The notes under the pieces are model-generated. The model did not search any database and was not told the DNA's origin. It saw only the letters and a list, made by a program, of their open reading frames with translations. This document shows positions 36,448 through 43,862 of a stretch of 64,000 bases of DNA, in pieces. The position numbers and the translations under genes were made by a program. The stretch covers positions 312,471-376,470 of the forward strand of contig NZ_JALBVB010000056.1 in assembly GCF_022669155.1 (NCBI RefSeq), written 5' to 3'. Each line of letters opens with the position of its first letter. Within the stretch, counting starts at the first letter, position 1. The stretch is from Kineococcus sp. TRM81007. Lineage in GTDB: Bacteria; Actinomycetota; Actinomycetes; Actinomycetales; Kineococcaceae.

Positions 36448-37317
36448 TCACCCGCCGGTGGGCGCCACGATCTCCCGCACGCTGGCGTCCCGGTAGACCA
36501 GGCCCCCCTCGTGCACCCCGTCGCTGCGGAAGTACACGCTCAGGTTGGGCTTGCCCGACTCCGAGCCGGGCCGGTCCGGTGAAGCGGTCAGGGGCATCGC
36601 AGGGTCGATGCCCTCCGCGCAGGCCTCGTCGCCGAAGACCTCACCGTCGTCCACCAGTTCGTTCACCAGGCGCCAGTCGCCCCCGTCCTCCCCGCCGGAC
36701 GTGTCGAGCCACAGCTCCAGCTTGACGTTCCCGTCCGGGAGGTCGTGCACGACGAACTTGTAGCCGAACCAGACGTCCGTGGGCATGCCGTCGGGCCACA
36801 GGACCTCGCTGGCCGCCGCTTCGTTGGCGGGGTGGGCCGTCTCCTTCTCGAAGTCCACCAGCCCGTCGTAGCGCATGCGAGCCCCGTAGCCCCGGCTGTC
36901 GCAGAGGTCCTCCTCCACGGGACCGGTCACCCCGTGGTTCGAGCGGGCGACCGCGGTCATGCCCGCGTAGGGGACCCCCTCGTCCGAACGGCGCATGAAG
37001 TACGTGGTGATCTCCACGTCCCGCCACTGCTCCTGCAGGGACGGGTCGCGCACGTACATGCGGGGGGCCCTGCCGCTGACGGCGAGCTCACCACCGGAGG
37101 CCGCGTAGGACCCCGAGCCGTCCGTGGCGAACCAGGGGTCCTGCGGGTCCTCGCTGCCGAAGCTGCGCGGCTCGTCCCACGCGGACTCCCAGTGCATGCC
37201 GCCGGGACGAGTGGGGTGGATCTCCCGGACGCCGCTGTCGGGAGCCCACGCCACCGCGCCGCCGGCCACCAGGAGCGCAGCGGCCCCGGCGACCAGGACC
37301 GCCCGGAGACCACGCAC
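36448..37317 (-). CDS. Secreted protein, possible concanavalin A-like fold
   Basis: 289 residues. A signal peptide or anchor (MRGLRAVLVAGAAALLVAGGAVAWA) precedes a beta-rich domain with many Trp, Asp and Gly residues (WFATDGSGSYAASGGELAV, RMYVRDPSLQEQWRDVEI, YAGMTAVARSNHG, WFGYKFVVHDLPDGNVKLELW, VYFRSDGV). The pattern of Trp/Phe-rich strands is similar to polysaccharide-lyase or concanavalin A-like domains, but I cannot name a family. GTG start. It is the last gene of the exopolysaccharide cluster strand, so it may bind or modify that polymer; this is inference. Confidence 0.6.
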   Translation of the reverse strand: MRGLRAVLVAGAAALLVAGGAVAWAPDSGVREIHPTRPGGMHWESAWDEPRSFGSEDPQDPWFATDGSGSYAASGGELAVSGRAPRMYVRDPSLQEQWRDVEITTYFMRRSDEGVPYAGMTAVARSNHGVTGPVEEDLCDSRGYGARMRYDGLVDFEKETAHPANEAAASEVLWPDGMPTDVWFGYKFVVHDLPDGNVKLELWLDTSGGEDGGDWRLVNELVDDGEVFGDEACAEGIDPAMPLTASPDRPGSESGKPNLSVYFRSDGVHEGGLVYRDASVREIVAPTGG

Positions 37318-37359
37318 GCCCCACCGTACCGCGGGCGTGGTCCCCCGGGCGGCGGGGAA

Positions 37360-38544
37360 CTACTGCTTCGGGACGGCCAGGGTGGCGCCGACCTTCGCGT
37401 TCGCCTCCAGCCACCGGCGGGCCTCGCCGTGACCGCTGAGCACGATCGAACCCGACGGCACCCGGATCCCCGGCTTGCTCCTCGAGACGCTCACCACGCG
37501 GCCGCTGCGGACGACGACCTCGGTCCCGTACTGGTTGGTCCCCGTGCTGGAGCCCGCCTTCGTGTACGCCACCAGCGCGTCAGCCGTCCGCGAGACGTTG
37601 AAGCCCTTCAGCGGGAACGTGGAGCCGGTGCCGGAGCGGACGACCCGGGCACCGCTCGTCGACGAGGTCGCCGGACCTACGGGCGCCACCGGGGCGACGG
37701 GAGCCACCGAGGTGGAACCGGACTCCGGCAGGTTGCGCGCGTCGTAGATCCTCTTCAGCTCGGCCTGCGTCAGCTTCCGGTCGAAGAACGCCACGCGCCG
37801 CAGGCGGCCCACCAGGAAACCGGTGGACATGTCGCGGGTGCCCAGGCGCACCGGTGCACCGCCGTTGCCCGGCTTGATGCTGTACCCGGACATCGGGTCG
37901 GAGTCGCGCTGCTGGCCGTTCTTCCACATGGAGATGGTGCTCATGTCGGCCATGCCGGTGACCATGCGCTCGGTGCCGGCGGCGTCCGCGTCCTGGAAGT
38001 AGGAGCCGGCGCCGAGGCCGCCGGAGGTGTTGAAGTGGTAGAAGCTGGTCCGGTACTGGCGGCTGCTCGCCTCACCGGTGCCGCCCTTGACGTAGTGGCG
38101 GAAGACCCACTCGTGCGAGCCCGCCGCCCCCTTGCCCATCCAGTGCACGTACTCGGAGGCGCCGGCGCCCCTCCAGTCGTCGATCGTGTTGAAGGCGACG
38201 ATCGTCAGGGCGCCCCTGGTGACCACGGAGAAGTCGCTGTGGTCGGGGATCTCGATGTAGCTCTTGCCGTCGAAGCGCGCGTGGGTGTCGAAGGCGACGT
38301 TCCCGTGCGCGGTGCCGTGGGTCCCGCCGACCACGTCGCGCGCCTGGCTGGCGCGGTCCAGCGGGTAGTAGTGCTTCAGACCGGGGATGTTCGTGATGAC
38401 GTCGCGGAAGGTCACGGTGGCTGCGTTCGCGGAGGGCGTGCAGGTCAGCGACGCGGTCGCCGCCGCACCGAGCCCCAGGAAGGTCAGGAAGCCGCGGCGC
38501 GACACGCTGGAGGAAGTCGAGGAAACATGGCCCGAAGTAGTCAT
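37360..38544 (-). CDS. Secreted LamG-like protein with C-terminal glycosidase-associated domain
   Basis: 394 residues. Twin-arginine signal (SVSRRGFLTFLGLGAAATAS). Residues ~50-250 form a LamG/concanavalin A-like lectin fold (YIEIPDHSDF, LTIVAFNTIDDW, VRLGTRDMSTGFLVGRLRRVAF, LTQAELKRIYDARN). After a Pro/Val/Ala linker, the C-terminal 100 residues resemble the N-terminal region found in phosphodiester glycosidases (FNVSRTADALVAYTKAGSST, IVLSGHGEARRWL). The ATG start has little ribosome site, so the mRNA may be leaderless. It sits 119 bases after the glycosyltransferase and is read the same way, suggesting a role in binding the exported polysaccharide. Function inferred. Confidence 0.7.
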   Translation of the reverse strand: MTTSGHVSSTSSSVSRRGFLTFLGLGAAATASLTCTPSANAATVTFRDVITNIPGLKHYYPLDRASQARDVVGGTHGTAHGNVAFDTHARFDGKSYIEIPDHSDFSVVTRGALTIVAFNTIDDWRGAGASEYVHWMGKGAAGSHEWVFRHYVKGGTGEASSRQYRTSFYHFNTSGGLGAGSYFQDADAAGTERMVTGMADMSTISMWKNGQQRDSDPMSGYSIKPGNGGAPVRLGTRDMSTGFLVGRLRRVAFFDRKLTQAELKRIYDARNLPESGSTSVAPVAPVAPVGPATSSTSGARVVRSGTGSTFPLKGFNVSRTADALVAYTKAGSSTGTNQYGTEVVVRSGRVVSVSRSKPGIRVPSGSIVLSGHGEARRWLEANAKVGATLAVPKQ

Positions 38545-38663
38545 GGACTACGTGTCGGGGCGCCCGTACCCCACCTTGAGCGGTGTCGCGGGCGTCACGC
38601 CGGACTGCCGGTGATCGCCCGGTGCGATCGGTCAGGGCCCTGCGCGGCCCCCGTCCGGCGGGA

Positions 38664-40121
38664 TCACGGGGCCGGGGTGCCCGTGGCCGGGGCGGCCACG
38701 GCGGCCGGGACGGCCTCCGCGGCGGGCAGGATCACCTCGCGGGTGTGCCAGCTCGTGGAGCGGAGCTTGGTGAGCGCGGCGTAGGCGGCCGGCCGGAGGA
38801 TCACCAGCCCGAAGACGGGGTAGACGGGGGAGAGCGCCCACTGCTGCAGGCGCTCGGCGAGGGTGAAGCCGGGCCGGTAGACGGCGTAGACGGCCGTCTG
38901 CGTGATCGCGCACACCACCCAGTAGAGGATCCCGTACCCCAGCGCGAGACTGCCGTAGCGGACGGAGAGCGTGATCAGCACGGCGACCGCGAGGGGCCAC
39001 AGCAGGGCGAAGACCAGCGGGAACGTGTAGAAGACCACCACGAGCCAGCGCAGGTTCGTCCACACGAAGCCCGTGCCGAGCCACGCCGACTTCGACCACC
39101 GCATGCGCTGCCGGAAGGCCCCGTCCCAGGTGGTCGGCAGCTGCGTCGCCACGACCGCCTCGCTGACGCCCACGACCTGGCCGCGCAGCAGCGCGTAGAA
39201 CGACAGGCGCCTGTCGTCGCCCGCCGTGCCCGAGGTGACGTAGTCCTCCAGGTTGTCGTAGATCACCGCGGAGCGGTACAGGGCCAGGGCCCCGCTCGTC
39301 GGCGACACGATCCCGAGCCACGAGCGGACCATGCGGAAGAGGAGGCAGCTGGTGACCACGTTGATGTCGGTGAGCCGGGTCAGGAGGTTCACGTTCCAGT
39401 TCCGCATGAGGATCATCCCGGTGCACGCCTGCACCCGGTCGTCGCTCATCGCCTCCAGCATGCGTTCCAGCGCGTCGTCGTCGAGTACGGAGTCCGAGTC
39501 CACCGTCAGCACGAAGTCGAACTCGCGGGCGGAGAACATCCGCAGCACGTGCGCCTGCGCGTGGCGCTTGCCGGAGTTGGCGATCCGGTGCCAGCGCACG
39601 AGCGGGTCGTCGAAGGTCCCCACGGGGACGACCGACCCGTCGTCGACCACGTGGATCTCGTCCGGCAGGATCGTCTGCCGCAGCAGGGCGCGCACGGCGG
39701 CGTGCACGAGGTGGTCCTCCTCGTTGTACACGGGGACGATGCACAGGACCCTGCCGTGCGCGGGGTTCAGGTGCGAGAAGGAGCGCCAGAACGTCCCGGA
39801 CACCAGGAAGCAGGTCACCAGGACCGCGTTGACCCCGAAGAAGGTGATGAGGAAGGCCACGTCCGTCGACGCCCAGCCGAAGTAGCTCCACAGCACGTAC
39901 CCCAGGAACAGCGCGGGGGCGAGGAGGGCGAGCGCCCGGCGGCGACCCCGCAGCGGCCGGCTCCTGCCGACGTCCCGGGCGCCGGGCACACGGCTGCTCC
40001 GCACGACGTCGCGAGCGGTGTGCCTGGCGGCCGGGTCACCGGACCGGCGGGGAGAGGCCCCCGGTGGTCTGCCCGGGCCTGCGGTGCGGGTGCGGACGTG
40101 CTTACCCCGTGCGGCGCGCAT
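38664..40121 (-). CDS. Processive family-2 glycosyltransferase (hyaluronan/chitin synthase-like)
   Basis: 485 residues with two N-terminal helices, a GT2 domain, and about three C-terminal helices. Key motifs: VDDGS, DSDS (208-211), the SGALALYR segment, GDDRRLS (301-307, like GDDR of hyaluronan synthases) and QRMRWSKS (338-345, the Q-x-x-R-W processivity motif). These mark polymerising enzymes that couple synthesis to export (HasA, NodC, IcaA/PgaC). Which sugar is polymerised cannot be read. The ATG start overlaps the end of the deacetylase gene by 20 bases. Key enzyme of the exopolysaccharide cluster. Confidence 0.88.
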   Translation of the reverse strand: MRAARGKHVRTRTAGPGRPPGASPRRSGDPAARHTARDVVRSSRVPGARDVGRSRPLRGRRRALALLAPALFLGYVLWSYFGWASTDVAFLITFFGVNAVLVTCFLVSGTFWRSFSHLNPAHGRVLCIVPVYNEEDHLVHAAVRALLRQTILPDEIHVVDDGSVVPVGTFDDPLVRWHRIANSGKRHAQAHVLRMFSAREFDFVLTVDSDSVLDDDALERMLEAMSDDRVQACTGMILMRNWNVNLLTRLTDINVVTSCLLFRMVRSWLGIVSPTSGALALYRSAVIYDNLEDYVTSGTAGDDRRLSFYALLRGQVVGVSEAVVATQLPTTWDGAFRQRMRWSKSAWLGTGFVWTNLRWLVVVFYTFPLVFALLWPLAVAVLITLSVRYGSLALGYGILYWVVCAITQTAVYAVYRPGFTLAERLQQWALSPVYPVFGLVILRPAAYAALTKLRSTSWHTREVILPAAEAVPAAVAAPATGTPAP

Positions 40122-41115
40122 AGCGCTTGCTCCTCGTCCCGTAGCGGTACGCGACCATCGCGGCGACGGCCACCAGCAGCCCCGACGCGATCACGTTCGA
40201 CTGGCTGATCCCGATCCCGGCCACCGTGAACGCCACCGTGCGGTTCCGCGCGTCGTCGGCCGCCGGGACGAGCCGTTCCAGCGGTGTGCCGACCACGGGC
40301 CGCGGCGAACCCCCGGCGACCTCGGACACCGTCGCGACGCGCGTGGCGGGCCCCCTGGCCGCCAGCCACTCCACGAACGCCGCGAAGTCGTGCGGGGAGA
40401 TCGCCGCGCTGCCCTCCTCCGGGCAGGTGCAGACGTGGTGGAAGACCAGGGGTACCCAGCCGCCGCCCGAGCGCTCCGCCTGCAGGACCCGCTCGCGCAG
40501 CAGTTCCGGTGCCACGTCCGTCCCGCTGGTGCGGATCCGCCAGCTGTCCGTGGCCGCCGGGTCCTCGGCGGGCGGGCAGGAGTCGCACTCCGTCGGTGAG
40601 GCGTAGAGGCCGGACGAGGCCCGGGCGCTGCTGTAGCCGCACTCCTGCACCACGCGCCGCACCTCGGGGCTCGTGGCGCCGTAGGGGTACGCGAAGCTGC
40701 GCGGGTCGAAGCCGAGCGCGGCGAGGGTCGCCCGGTCGTCGCAGACCTGCGTCCTGGCGGTCGCGAGGGGCACCTCGGGGAGGGACTCGTGGTCGAGACC
40801 GTGGCCGCCGATCTCGTGCCCCGCGGCGGCCAGGCCCCGCAACTGCTCCACCGTGAGGTTGGCCGGGTAGCCGATGGACGAGGAGTTGACGTAGAAGGTC
40901 CCCGCCATCCCCCTGTCGGCGAGCACCTGGGCGGCGACCTCCTGGCTCTTCAGCCCGTCGTCGAACGTCAGGGACACCACCGTGCCCCCGGCGGGGAGCG
41001 TCAGCGGTTCGCGGCCCGGTCCGCCCGCCGGGGCGCCGTGGGCCGCGGCGGGCGGGCCCACGACGGCTGCCGCGAGCGCGATGGTGAGGACGGTCGCGCG
41101 GTCGCGGAGCCTCAC
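40102..41115 (-). CDS. Polysaccharide deacetylase (NodB-type, membrane-anchored)
   Basis: 337 residues. An N-terminal signal or anchor (VLTIALAAAVVGPPAAAHGA) precedes the NodB domain: TFDDG (residues 50-54, catalytic Asp), metal His105 and His109 (EIGGHGLDHESLPE), and motif 3 FAYPYGA. A C-terminal helix (VIASGLLVAVAAMVAYRY) followed by basic residues anchors it at the outer face of the membrane. Such enzymes remove N-acetyl groups from polymerised GlcNAc. The GTG start overlaps the TGA of the dehydrogenase (GTGA), and the synthase overlaps its end, so they are co-translated. Its likely substrate is the polymer made by that synthase. Confidence 0.88.
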   Translation of the reverse strand: MRLRDRATVLTIALAAAVVGPPAAAHGAPAGGPGREPLTLPAGGTVVSLTFDDGLKSQEVAAQVLADRGMAGTFYVNSSSIGYPANLTVEQLRGLAAAGHEIGGHGLDHESLPEVPLATARTQVCDDRATLAALGFDPRSFAYPYGATSPEVRRVVQECGYSSARASSGLYASPTECDSCPPAEDPAATDSWRIRTSGTDVAPELLRERVLQAERSGGGWVPLVFHHVCTCPEEGSAAISPHDFAAFVEWLAARGPATRVATVSEVAGGSPRPVVGTPLERLVPAADDARNRTVAFTVAGIGISQSNVIASGLLVAVAAMVAYRYGTRSKRYARRTG

Positions 41116-42359
41116 AGCCGGACGACGTTGCTCGACGCCGGGACGGCGTGCCGGCAGTCGAGCACCAGGCGGGCCTCCGAGGCGATCTTCTCGTAGTCGA
41201 AGTCGTCGTGGTCCGTGACGAGCACCACGAGGTCGAAGCTCGGCAGCGAGGGGATCATCTCCTCCAGGGAGAGCACCGGGCTCAGCGTCCAGCGGTCGAC
41301 GTGGGGGTCCACCACCGTCACGTCGAGCGCGCGGGCCTGCATCTGGCGGACCACCTCGACGGCGGGGCTCTCGCGGACGTCGCCGACGTTCGGCTTGTAC
41401 GCGGTGCCCAGCACCAGGACGCTCCTGCCGCCGGCGTTCTCGACCAGTTCCGCGGCGCGTTCCGCCACCAGGACGGGTCGCTCCTCGTTGACCTGCTGCG
41501 CCAGTTCCGCGAACCGGAACGGCCGGCCGAGCTCCTCGCGGGCGAGCCACGCCAGGTAGATGGGGTCGATGGGCAGGCAGTGCCCGCCCACGCCGGGACC
41601 GGGGGTCCAGCGGGCCATGGAGTGCCCCTTCGTCATCGAGGCCTCCACAACCTCCCAGACGTCGATGCCGAGCAGCCTGCAGAGCTCGGCCATCTCGTTG
41701 ACGAGGGCGATGTTCGTGTTGGCCTGGATGTTCTCGAAGAGCTTGGTGATCTCGGCCGTCCGGGGGTTGCTCACCGGGACGGTCCGCTCCACGACGGTGT
41801 CGTAGAACGCCTGGACGGCGGCCAGCCCCGTCGGGGTGGTGGCGGACACGAGCTTGGGCGTGTTCACCAGCGTGTTCACCTTGTTCCCCGGGTCGATGCG
41901 CTCGGGGGAGAAACCGAGGTGGAAGTCGTGGCCGGCTTTCAGCCCGCTCTCCTCCTCCAGCACCTCCGCCAGCAGGCCCTCCGTCGTCCCCGGGTACGTC
42001 GTGCTCTCCAGGACGACGGTGCTGCCCCGGCGGAGGAACCGCCCCAGCGTGCGCCCCGCCGCTTCGACGCAGGAGAGGTCCGGTTCGCCGTCGCGCAGGG
42101 GAGTGGGGACCACGATGATCCCCACGTCGAAGTGCAGCATGTCCGGTGCCGGGTTCGCCGAGACGTGGAACGCGCCGTCCGCCAGCACGTCCTGCAGCTC
42201 CTGGCTGGAGACGTCCTCCACGTACGTGCGCCCGGCCTGCAGCGCCTCGATCTTCGCGGGGTCCAGGTCGAGGCCGAAGACCCGGTGGCCGGCCTGCGCC
42301 GCCCGCACGGCCAGCGGCAACCCCACGTAGCCCAGGCCCACCACCACGACGCGGCTCAC
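41112..42359 (-). CDS. Nucleotide-sugar dehydrogenase, UDP-HexNAc type
   Basis: 415 residues of the UDP-glucose/GDP-mannose dehydrogenase superfamily: GLGYVGLPLA nucleotide site at the N-terminus and catalytic Cys261 in GVGGHCLPIDP. The segment FSPERIDPGN followed by NTPKLV matches the WbpA/TviB group, which oxidises UDP-N-acetylhexosamines to uronic acids, rather than UDP-glucose dehydrogenases, which have NPEFLREG-type residues there. Product: UDP-HexNAc uronic acid for polymer synthesis. GTGA overlaps at both ends (WbqC upstream, deacetylase downstream). The HexNAc assignment is from motif comparison only. Confidence 0.85.
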   Translation of the reverse strand: MSRVVVVGLGYVGLPLAVRAAQAGHRVFGLDLDPAKIEALQAGRTYVEDVSSQELQDVLADGAFHVSANPAPDMLHFDVGIIVVPTPLRDGEPDLSCVEAAGRTLGRFLRRGSTVVLESTTYPGTTEGLLAEVLEEESGLKAGHDFHLGFSPERIDPGNKVNTLVNTPKLVSATTPTGLAAVQAFYDTVVERTVPVSNPRTAEITKLFENIQANTNIALVNEMAELCRLLGIDVWEVVEASMTKGHSMARWTPGPGVGGHCLPIDPIYLAWLAREELGRPFRFAELAQQVNEERPVLVAERAAELVENAGGRSVLVLGTAYKPNVGDVRESPAVEVVRQMQARALDVTVVDPHVDRWTLSPVLSLEEMIPSLPSFDLVVLVTDHDDFDYEKIASEARLVLDCRHAVPASSNVVRL

Positions 42360-43078
42360 GCCGTCGCTCCTTCGCGCTCGGGGAGGACGACTTCTCCCGG
42401 TGCCCCCTCGGACCCGGGCAGGACGATCTCCGCCGGCGTCACCTCGCGCTCGGCGAGGACGATCTCCATCGGGTCGTCGTAGTCCATGAGGACGGACAGG
42501 ATCGAGTCTCCCGTCACGGGTTCGTGCGGGGACCAGATCACGGGGATCCCGGCCTCGTCGAACTCGCGGCAGTCACCCATGTAGGCGCGCGCGCCGGTCC
42601 CCGACAGGTACGTGGGCTCGCCGTAGGTCTTCAGGACGCTCACCAGGCCCACGCTGCCGCCCCCTTCCGTCGCCACGCTGACCGACAGCGGCGTGCGGAT
42701 GCCGAGGACGTCCCGCACCAGGAGGATGAGTTCCGTGTTGAAGTGCCAGAGCCGGTCCGTGTGGATGGAGAGGATGCTGTCCACGAGCATGGGGCCGTAC
42801 TTGTCCCAGTTCCTCGACCCGCAGTAGCGGCCGCGGATCACCTGGGCCAGAGCCCTCGGGGACTCCACGGGGTCGATGCGCACCTCGCAGATGGGTGCGT
42901 ACTTGTGCTTGCCCGTCACGGGCAGCGATGCCCAGGTGCCGCGCATCTTCACGCGGCGCTGGTAGCCGCGGTCGACGAACTGGTCGAAGATCTTCAGGTC
43001 GAACAAGTCGGCCTTGGCCATCTTGTACCAGAAACCGGAGTAGGGCAGGAGGTCTGCCTGGTGGCTTGCGACGATCAC
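42356..43078 (-). CDS. WbqC-family protein
   Basis: A 240-residue protein of the WbqC family: the start IVASHQADLLPYSGFWYKMA, FVDRGYQRRVKMRG, KYAPICEVRID, RYCGSRNWDKYGPM, and GGGSVGLVSVLKTYGEPTYLSG. WbqC genes are found in O-antigen and exopolysaccharide loci; their enzymatic role is unproven but they are thought to act on amino-sugar nucleotides. The last ~35 residues hold three copies of a short repeat (EIVLAEREVTP, EIVLPGSEGAPG, EVVLPEREGATA), an unusual tail that may be recent. The GTGA overlap ties it to the dehydrogenase. Confidence 0.8.
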   Translation of the reverse strand: MIVASHQADLLPYSGFWYKMAKADLFDLKIFDQFVDRGYQRRVKMRGTWASLPVTGKHKYAPICEVRIDPVESPRALAQVIRGRYCGSRNWDKYGPMLVDSILSIHTDRLWHFNTELILLVRDVLGIRTPLSVSVATEGGGSVGLVSVLKTYGEPTYLSGTGARAYMGDCREFDEAGIPVIWSPHEPVTGDSILSVLMDYDDPMEIVLAEREVTPAEIVLPGSEGAPGEVVLPEREGATA

Positions 43079-43220
43079 TGTTCCCCCGTGGGTGTCACTG
43101 TGGAGCGCGCGCTGGTGCGCGCCGGTACGCGCAGCGCGACGGTCGCGCTGCCGTGGCGGGTCGTCCGGCGAGGACGGGGTGCCCCCGCGCCCCCTCGCCT
43201 GCGTCAGACCCGGGTGTCGG

Positions 43221-43862
43221 TCACCGGATGGTCCGCACCAGGGCGTACTGCTCGGCGAACGCGGTCTGGCGCTGGCTCCCGAGGGAGCGCGCGGTGGCCT
43301 TCAGTTCGTTGCACGCGTGCGGTCCGGAGGCCACCTGCGACTGGTAGCAGGCGAACGCCTCGGCCTTGCGGTCCACCTGGTCCTCCGTCAGCGACTCGAA
43401 GTGGTTCCAGCGCAGGTTCGACGGGTACAGCGTCAGGTCGTAGGCGGCCACGTCGTAGACCATCACCGTCGGTGTGAACCAGTGGCGTGTCCCCATCGCC
43501 ATGCGCGATGCCCTCATGCCCGCCTCGTAGGCGGCCACGTGGTCCTGGTGCAGGGAGGGGAACGGCAGGTAGATCTCCTCGGGCCGGCAGGTGTCGATGA
43601 CGTGGTCGATCATCCCGACGAGAACCGTCATGTCGGCGCCCACGGCTCCGTCGGTGAGGTTCAGGAGCCAGGACCGGGAGTACCCGAGGCATTCCCGTGC
43701 CTCCTCGAACTCCTTGTGGCGCAGCGGGTCGGGGCGGGCGAGCACCACGACGCCGCACTCGGGGGCGTACTTGGCGAGCAGCCCCCCGCACCCGAGCACT
43801 TCGTCGTCGCAGTGCGGGGCCACCACGAGCCTGCGGATCGAGCTTCCCTGGTCAGAGGTCAT
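43221..43862 (-). CDS. PIG-L/LmbE-family deacetylase
   Basis: 213 residues. The zinc motif PHCDDE (residues 16-21) is intact, with the distal His in the FPSLHQDHVAA segment. Members include the MshB-type N-deacetylases and GlcNAc deacetylases. It is the first gene of the cluster, 142 bases before WbqC, and so probably supplies a deacetylated hexosamine, or removes an acetyl group from a precursor. The substrate is unknown. The ATG has only a weak ribosome site. It is preceded by a 448-bp gene-free leader. Confidence 0.85.
   Translation of the reverse strand: MTSDQGSSIRRLVVAPHCDDEVLGCGGLLAKYAPECGVVVLARPDPLRHKEFEEARECLGYSRSWLLNLTDGAVGADMTVLVGMIDHVIDTCRPEEIYLPFPSLHQDHVAAYEAGMRASRMAMGTRHWFTPTVMVYDVAAYDLTLYPSNLRWNHFESLTEDQVDRKAEAFACYQSQVASGPHACNELKATARSLGSQRQTAFAEQYALVRTIR

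Follow-up and report, generated by a model that had tools for sequence, protein, structure and literature searches.

A rare Kineococcus operon predicted to make a hyaluronan-like, negatively charged polysaccharide

A 64,000-nucleotide stretch of DNA from the soil bacterium Kineococcus sp. TRM81007 (contig NZ_JALBVB010000056.1; hereafter the window) carries seven genes that run in a single direction on the minus strand, from 43862 to 36448: pigL, wbqC, ndh, a deacetylase gene, gt2, lamG and a last secreted-protein gene. Few actinomycete exopolysaccharide synthases have been characterised. We propose, with moderate confidence, a five-step scheme in which the operon synthesises and exports a negatively charged polysaccharide resembling hyaluronan. 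A preliminary description, made from the DNA letters alone, had placed the seven genes on this strand and read them as a single exopolysaccharide operon; the open reading frames and Pfam searches bear out the genes and their positions, the last protein being the one without a family, and the reading as one operon is supported by the analyses below.

Results

The synthase gene gt2 (38664..40121, minus strand) encodes a 485-residue family 2 glycosyltransferase (GT2) that is predicted to be processive and hyaluronan-synthase-like, has N- and C-terminal membrane segments, and matches Pfam GT2 families at 1.1e-18. The D-S-D-S, GDDR and QRMRW motifs named in the preliminary description were all located, at residues 208-211, 301-304 and 338-342, and a QRxRWSKS motif is also present. 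When a profile of five GT2 sequences was searched against solved structures, the closest relatives were hyaluronan synthases (4e-12 to 8e-12), including Xenopus HAS1 (8smm; 3.7e-12) and the Chlorella virus HAS (7sp7; 7e-12), with chondroitin and chitin synthases ranking after them. The alignment runs through the catalytic half and the membrane and gating half, up to a conserved W-x-T-R. With a single GT2 module, membrane segments, GDDR and QxxRW motifs, and hyaluronan synthases as its nearest relatives, the protein has the features of a class I hyaluronan synthase.

An unlikely but serious alternative is that the GT2 makes a homopolymer of the poly-N-acetylglucosamine (PNAG) or chitin type, partly deacetylated by the NodB-type enzyme in the manner of MatAB, Ica/Pga or NodC, and that ndh, PIG-L and WbqC serve another glycan and are only co-regulated. 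The deacetylase gene does adjoin and overlap gt2, which recalls MatB, where GT2 and CE4 are connected by a membrane helix (PMC5972031), and the best curated model for the synthase is NodC (TIGR04242, 100.7 bits), with the PNAG synthase model PgaC/IcaA (TIGR03937) at 56.4 bits. However, these scores lie far under the respective cut-offs of 550 and 422.3 bits, the nearest solved relatives are hyaluronan synthases and not PgaC types, the GDDR and QRxRWSKS motifs argue the same way, and a Nocardioides version of the operon drops the deacetylase domain while retaining the dehydrogenase in an overlapping unit. The distinction that the preliminary description drew from ica/pga is supported.

The ndh gene (41112..42359, minus strand) encodes 415 residues, matches the N, central and C domains of UDPG_MGDP_dh in Pfam (2e-37, 2e-26 and 2e-18) and the general NCBIfam family TIGR03026 (1.3e-116), and is predicted by its motifs and by a tree to be a 6-dehydrogenase of the UDP-N-acetylhexosamine (UDP-HexNAc) type. 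Its SPERIDPG (41886-41909) and GVGGHCLPIDP, with the active-site Cys261, fit the SPERxxPG and GGHCxPxDP motifs of UDP-HexNAc 6-dehydrogenases, which replace the PEFLREG and GGSCFPKD of UDP-glucose dehydrogenases. The SPERxxPG/GGHC-type signature is that of the 6-dehydrogenases of UDP-N-acetylglucosamine (UDP-GlcNAc) and UDP-N-acetylgalactosamine, such as WbpA, TviB and WbpO. The enzyme was also placed in a tree together with WecC and Ugd of E. coli and five enzymes with solved structures; there it falls into a supported clade with Streptomyces and Sinorhizobium proteins that have SPER[IE]DPG, apart from the UDP-glucose and UDP-N-acetylmannosamine (UDP-ManNAc) dehydrogenases. These motifs and this position agree with the earlier remark that the dehydrogenase looks HexNAc-specific.

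Four other members of the family are encoded in the genome (two on C35, one each on C41 and C42), with about 1300 bp of identical sequence in common, and the copy that was read has the UDP-glucose signature NPEFLREG/GGGCLPKD and adjoins another GT2 and beta-helix-like proteins. Because such copies carry the UDP-glucose signature, the operon enzyme is probably not the one that serves the cell as UDP-glucose dehydrogenase. This bears on a second alternative, that the operon makes true hyaluronan or another polymer containing glucuronic acid and that its dehydrogenase in fact uses UDP-glucose. The kinship of the GT2 with hyaluronan synthases would suit this, and the PER motif of CalS8, which is a UDP-glucose dehydrogenase, indicates that the motifs are not absolute; but SPERIDPG and GGHC stand in place of PEFLREG and GGSC, canonical UDP-glucose-type enzymes exist elsewhere in the genome beside another GT2, and PIG-L and WbqC would be left without a substrate in the uronic branch. 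We consider it improbable.

The four near-identical UDP-glucose-type copies lie at or near contig ends (C35, C41 and C42; loci L070-L072, for example L070:1-8777). On C35 they flank the other processive GT2 (L070:5705-7261, minus strand) and the beta-helix-like proteins, and the whole looks like a repeated cluster of alginate or hyaluronan type that apparently breaks the assembly. Members of the operon dehydrogenase's subfamily also occur in other settings. In Sinorhizobium medicae (L058:5117-13336) the gene adjoins those for a polysaccharide lyase, a protein with an adenylate/guanylate-cyclase domain, a NodB-type deacetylase and a GT4 enzyme, and on a plasmid of Streptomyces sp. ADI95-16 (L056:5878-10221) the dehydrogenase gene precedes those for a NodB-type deacetylase and for a glycosyltransferase without detectable similarity to the operon GT2.

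For conservation, the main comparison genomes were Kineococcus indalonis T90, the closest named relative in the collections, and a Nocardioides metagenome-assembled genome (L005/L029). All seven genes are syntenic in K. indalonis, with 75-88% identity and the same flanking neighbours, and in this comparison all seven are under purifying selection (pN/pS 0.24-0.49). The Nocardioides genome holds six of the seven (pigL at 60% identity, wbqC at 61%, the dehydrogenase at 55%, GT2 at 59%, the last secreted protein at 52% and the LamG protein at 35%) and lacks the NodB domain; its LamG and last secreted genes are swapped in order relative to Kineococcus, and from pigL to the last secreted gene its genes overlap or are separated by a few bases. 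A second genome of the Nocardioides group has the portion from GT2 through the secreted protein to LamG at a contig end. Within the genus, a WbqC search found the operon in one Kineococcus genome out of ten besides that of the window; a GT2 search concurs, save for one distant match of 30%, and across a class-wide sample of 395 genomes the last secreted protein was seen only in the window's own genome. Because synteny extends to seven of seven genes in K. indalonis and six of seven in Nocardioides, the locus is a real, selected and rare operon and not a chance arrangement. The preliminary description had suggested seeking the gene order in relatives, and there it is kept. In Nocardioides, a gene for a SARP-type regulator with a BTAD domain follows the LamG gene on the same strand (L005:6510-7445).

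The deacetylase gene (40102..41115, minus strand) encodes a NodB/CE4 protein of 337 residues with a signal peptide and a C-terminal membrane tail (Polysacc_deac_1, PF01522; 2.7e-20, 73 bits against a cut-off of 23.1). Its TFDDG, HGLDH and AYPYG motifs are intact, include the Asp-His-His metal motifs and align with 8hfa. The last ~40 residues (FTVAGIGISQSNVIASGLLVAVAAMVAYRYGTRSKR..., 40102..40233) form a separable, conserved membrane segment, a feature missed by the preliminary description. In Nocardioides, a homologous 42-residue frame lies between the dehydrogenase and GT2 genes; it starts with GTG at L005:2991 in a GTGA overlap with the dehydrogenase stop, ends two bases ahead of the GT2 ATG, and scores 75 against the deacetylase's final 40 residues in Kineococcus (z = 12.9; 0 of 2000 shuffles). 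Because Nocardioides lacks NodB yet keeps the membrane tail as this frame, the NodB domain is not core to the operon.

Streptomyces-type relatives have an annotated 57-residue or an unannotated 54-residue protein at the same position ahead of GT2. A pair of the 57-residue microproteins gave a pN/pS of 0.12, and three Streptomyces-type loci hold a minimal set of dehydrogenase, microprotein and GT2 without pigL or wbqC. A position scan detected the segment ahead of GT2 in 9 of 12 loci, as a deacetylase tail in two and free in seven, and six of the seven free microproteins combine an L[AP]xTG-like motif with one hydrophobic helix followed by basic residues in the tail. In a control under a stricter rule, 231 gene starts yielded four matches, all at GT2 genes, and none among about 220 other genes. 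Locus L047 seems to have two microprotein-like frames in tandem ahead of GT2.

The Kineococcus tail resembles the Streptomyces-type microproteins less closely in sequence (z 3 to 6), and because of this their common descent rests mainly on position. The model NF058583 (LAXTG motif-containing small protein, ~54 residues) matched the S. coeruleorubidus microprotein at 1.1e-6 and 28.2 bits, below its cut-off of 65, and matched neither the Kineococcus tail nor the Nocardioides 42-residue protein. Since FTVAG or CTVAG replaces an intact LAxTG at the motif place in the Kineococcus and Nocardioides versions, we do not call these tails sortase signals. Searches of plasmids for the microproteins found nothing, and a low-complexity filter may hide them. 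The earlier statement that the synthase has no second partner subunits does not stand: a single-helix protein precedes GT2 in most relatives examined and is present here as the deacetylase tail. A partner subunit of the GT2 therefore likely exists, fused in Kineococcus to the deacetylase, and a predicted tethered extracellular deacetylase is confined to Kineococcus among these relatives. By analogy with BcsB, the simplest reading of the tail or microprotein is a tail-anchor-type synthase partner, which in its Kineococcus version would also tether the deacetylase.

The two genes at the head of the operon point to tailoring of the sugar. The pigL gene (43221..43862, minus strand) encodes a 213-residue zinc de-N-acetylase of the PIG-L/LmbE type (PF02585; 3.4e-13, 50.7 bits against a cut-off of 28.2), whose metal motifs PHCDDE and HQDH are intact and align over the motifs with the BshB-type deacetylases 1uan and 6p2t. 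It has no signal peptide or other hydrophobic signal, as for a cytosolic enzyme, and its identity in Nocardioides and K. indalonis is 60-88%. The wbqC gene (42356..43078, minus strand) encodes a 240-residue member of the WbqC family (PF08889; 3.4e-23, 83.1 bits against a cut-off of 21.3), a putative N-acyl or aminoacyl transferase. According to a suggestion reportedly cited in the Pfam entry, one member of this family is a glycine transferase in O-antigen synthesis; literature searches on WbqC function and on the operon found nothing. At its C-terminus the window's WbqC is extended by a stretch that contains an imperfect repeat (EIVLPGSEGAPGEVVLPEREG, 42356-42430), and its relatives are without this extension.

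PIG-L was found in the immediate neighbourhood of WbqC in six of seven further genome loci, usually without an operon-type GT2 or dehydrogenase, and because of this recurrence the pair is, by gene neighbourhood, a module of its own. This suggests a module that tailors a precursor, deacetylating it and then re-acylating it, perhaps with glycine. Because PIG-L lacks a signal peptide and pairs with WbqC in unrelated contexts, re-acylation of a precursor fits better than a route to free amines. The preliminary description had favoured a polymer with amino-uronic acid and free amino groups; the amino-uronic part is favoured here too, and the free amines are weakened by this pairing and by the loss of NodB in Nocardioides. 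A related alternative, close to that earlier view, holds that PIG-L exposes the amine on the uronic sugar and that WbqC forms an amide at the carboxyl group, for example with glycine, to give a free-amine polymer. It is in keeping with the overlap of wbqC with the dehydrogenase gene and with the amino-acid-amidated uronic acids known in O-antigens (E. coli O91-type). We nevertheless think it very unlikely: PIG-L/WbqC pairs also occur without an operon-type dehydrogenase nearby (L017, L018 and L020-L022), so that WbqC is linked to PIG-L and not to the carboxyl-forming enzyme.

Two secreted proteins complete the operon. The lamG gene (37360..38544, minus strand) encodes a 394-residue LamG or concanavalin-like protein with a twin-arginine signal (Laminin_G_3 at 7e-7 and a TAT_signal_seq match), which is 82% identical in K. 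indalonis and 35% over the LamG part in Nocardioides. The last gene (36448..37317, minus strand) encodes 289 residues of a new family that no Pfam family matched; in Nocardioides its start overlaps the end of GT2. Its AlphaFold model has a mean pLDDT of 56, with core strands at about 70-83, and is a concanavalin-like sandwich, for which the CBM66 domain 4azz gave a VIA Z of 16.3 (root-mean-square deviation 2.7 over 155 residues) and many lectins gave Z of 13-15. Both secreted proteins thus look concanavalin-like, one by Pfam and the other by a model of modest confidence. Across three sequences of the 289-residue family many Arg, His, Tyr and Lys positions are invariant, as would be fitting for an acidic ligand, bound or cleaved. 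A polysaccharide lyase (PL) was considered for this protein after Foldseek matches to PL7, PL14, PL20 and PL28 folds; because these matches reach only the level of the fold, and the best scores go to CBM66 and lectins, we do not claim lyase activity. Plasmid searches for the protein found nothing.

The genes are closely packed. The three overlapping joints reported in the preliminary description were recovered, as 4-bp GTGA overlaps between wbqC and ndh (42356-42359) and between ndh and the deacetylase gene (41112-41115), and as a 20-bp overlap between the deacetylase gene and gt2 (40102-40121). The remaining gaps measure 142 bp (pigL-wbqC), 119 bp (gt2-lamG) and 42 bp (lamG to the last gene). 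Within the operon stretch no Rfam family, tRNA, or convincing promoter or terminator was found. The operon is flanked on one side by serC and a small gene that reads as DUF1810-like, and on the other by a gene of beta-lactamase fold.

Discussion

The five steps that we propose are as follows. The dehydrogenase would oxidise a UDP-N-acetylhexosamine, most likely UDP-GlcNAc, to a UDP-N-acetylhexosaminuronic acid, as its motifs and tree position suggest. In the cytosol, PIG-L may strip the N-acetyl group from a precursor, and WbqC may load the freed amine with another acyl or aminoacyl residue, possibly glycine; this step is the weakest of the scheme. The GT2, assigned to its class by profile, would build a chain of the uronic sugar, either by itself or in alternation with GlcNAc, and thread it through its own membrane channel. 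The conserved single-helix segment, which is homologous between Kineococcus and Nocardioides, would serve as the tail-anchor-type partner, and in Kineococcus would carry the extracellular NodB deacetylase, which could trim some N-acetyl groups on the emerging chain, a trimming absent in Nocardioides. Outside the cell, the two secreted proteins, with their predicted concanavalin-like folds, would bind, organise or cut the polymer.

Several observations weigh against this scheme. Other actinomycete loci, in several genomes, hold the GT2 without an adjacent dehydrogenase of the operon type, and because of this the synthase may not need a uronic donor; the same finding counts for the homopolymer alternative. 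The dehydrogenase reached no equivalog cut-off (TviB 169 of 592, WecC 216 of 459), its best-scoring equivalog models being those of UDP-ManNAc dehydrogenases, all below cut-off, and the tree contained no characterised WbpA reference. For WbqC, a search of the PDB for solved relatives found none, the AlphaFold model is poor (mean pLDDT 48, three sequences), and the function is inferred. Comparison of the two Kineococcus species shows more change in the tail than in the catalytic domain, and the literature searched held no such polymer.

A bolder version of the proposal, which we regard as possible but doubtful, is that an actinomycete family of HAS-like synthases depends on a membrane microprotein of ~50 residues that resembles a sortase signal, that the fusion of this subunit to the deacetylase in Kineococcus couples synthesis to trimming, and that the polymer is built of N-aminoacylated amino-uronic acid through a dehydrogenase/PIG-L/WbqC relay paralleling the linking-sugar pathway of sortase-anchored proteins. 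The enzyme classes are known ones; what is unexpected is that the operon is so rare and that it brings a new family of secreted protein and a microprotein partner. Polymers of hyaluronan type whose sugars are N-modified or zwitterionic would represent new materials. The locus also offers a compact system for the role of the widespread PIG-L/WbqC pair and for whether tiny single-helix proteins are obligatory GT2 partners, as with the BcsB tail anchor.

Among known systems, the class I hyaluronan synthases (hasA/hasB; CvHAS 7sp7, XlHAS1 8smm) are similar in having a single processive membrane GT2 with GDDR and QxxRWSKS and a dehydrogenase for the uronic donor. The operon departs from hasA/hasB in its dehydrogenase, which by sequence is HexNAc-type and not UDP-glucose-type, and in its additional PIG-L, WbqC, tailed secreted deacetylase and two lectin-like secreted proteins. 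The earlier claim of a difference from hasA/hasB holds in the strict sense but calls for care, since by profile the solved structures nearest to the GT2 are hyaluronan synthases. Streptomyces MatAB, which makes PNAG, and Ica/Pga likewise use a membrane helix to couple a GT2 to a CE4 deacetylase outside the cell (PMC5972031), but in those systems GT2 and CE4 share one polypeptide, the GT2 is PgaC-like, and a dehydrogenase, PIG-L and WbqC are not described. In the Wbp/Vim linking-sugar pathway of Porphyromonas and Tannerella, UDP-GlcNAc is dehydrogenated at C6 and processed further, after which a deacetylase probably takes off the acetyl group at C2 and VimA probably supplies serine or glycine, so that the N-acetyl would be swapped for an amino acid (PMC7468200). 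That pathway employs VimE (CE4-type), VimA (GNAT/FemAB-type) and WbpB/D/E, whereas here there are PIG-L, WbqC and a polymerising synthase; Pfam and NCBIfam detected no VimA-type GNAT/FemAB transferase and no WbpB/D/E among the seven operon genes, and the likeness is one of analogy. Finally, BcsB is an extracytoplasmic protein held by one C-terminal helix and encoded with a processive GT2 synthase, and its tail anchor together with BcsA suffices for cellulose synthesis in vitro (PMC11470070). The Kineococcus-type helix has no known sequence relation to BcsB and, unlike it, also exists as a microprotein on its own, in many cases with an LAxTG-like motif.

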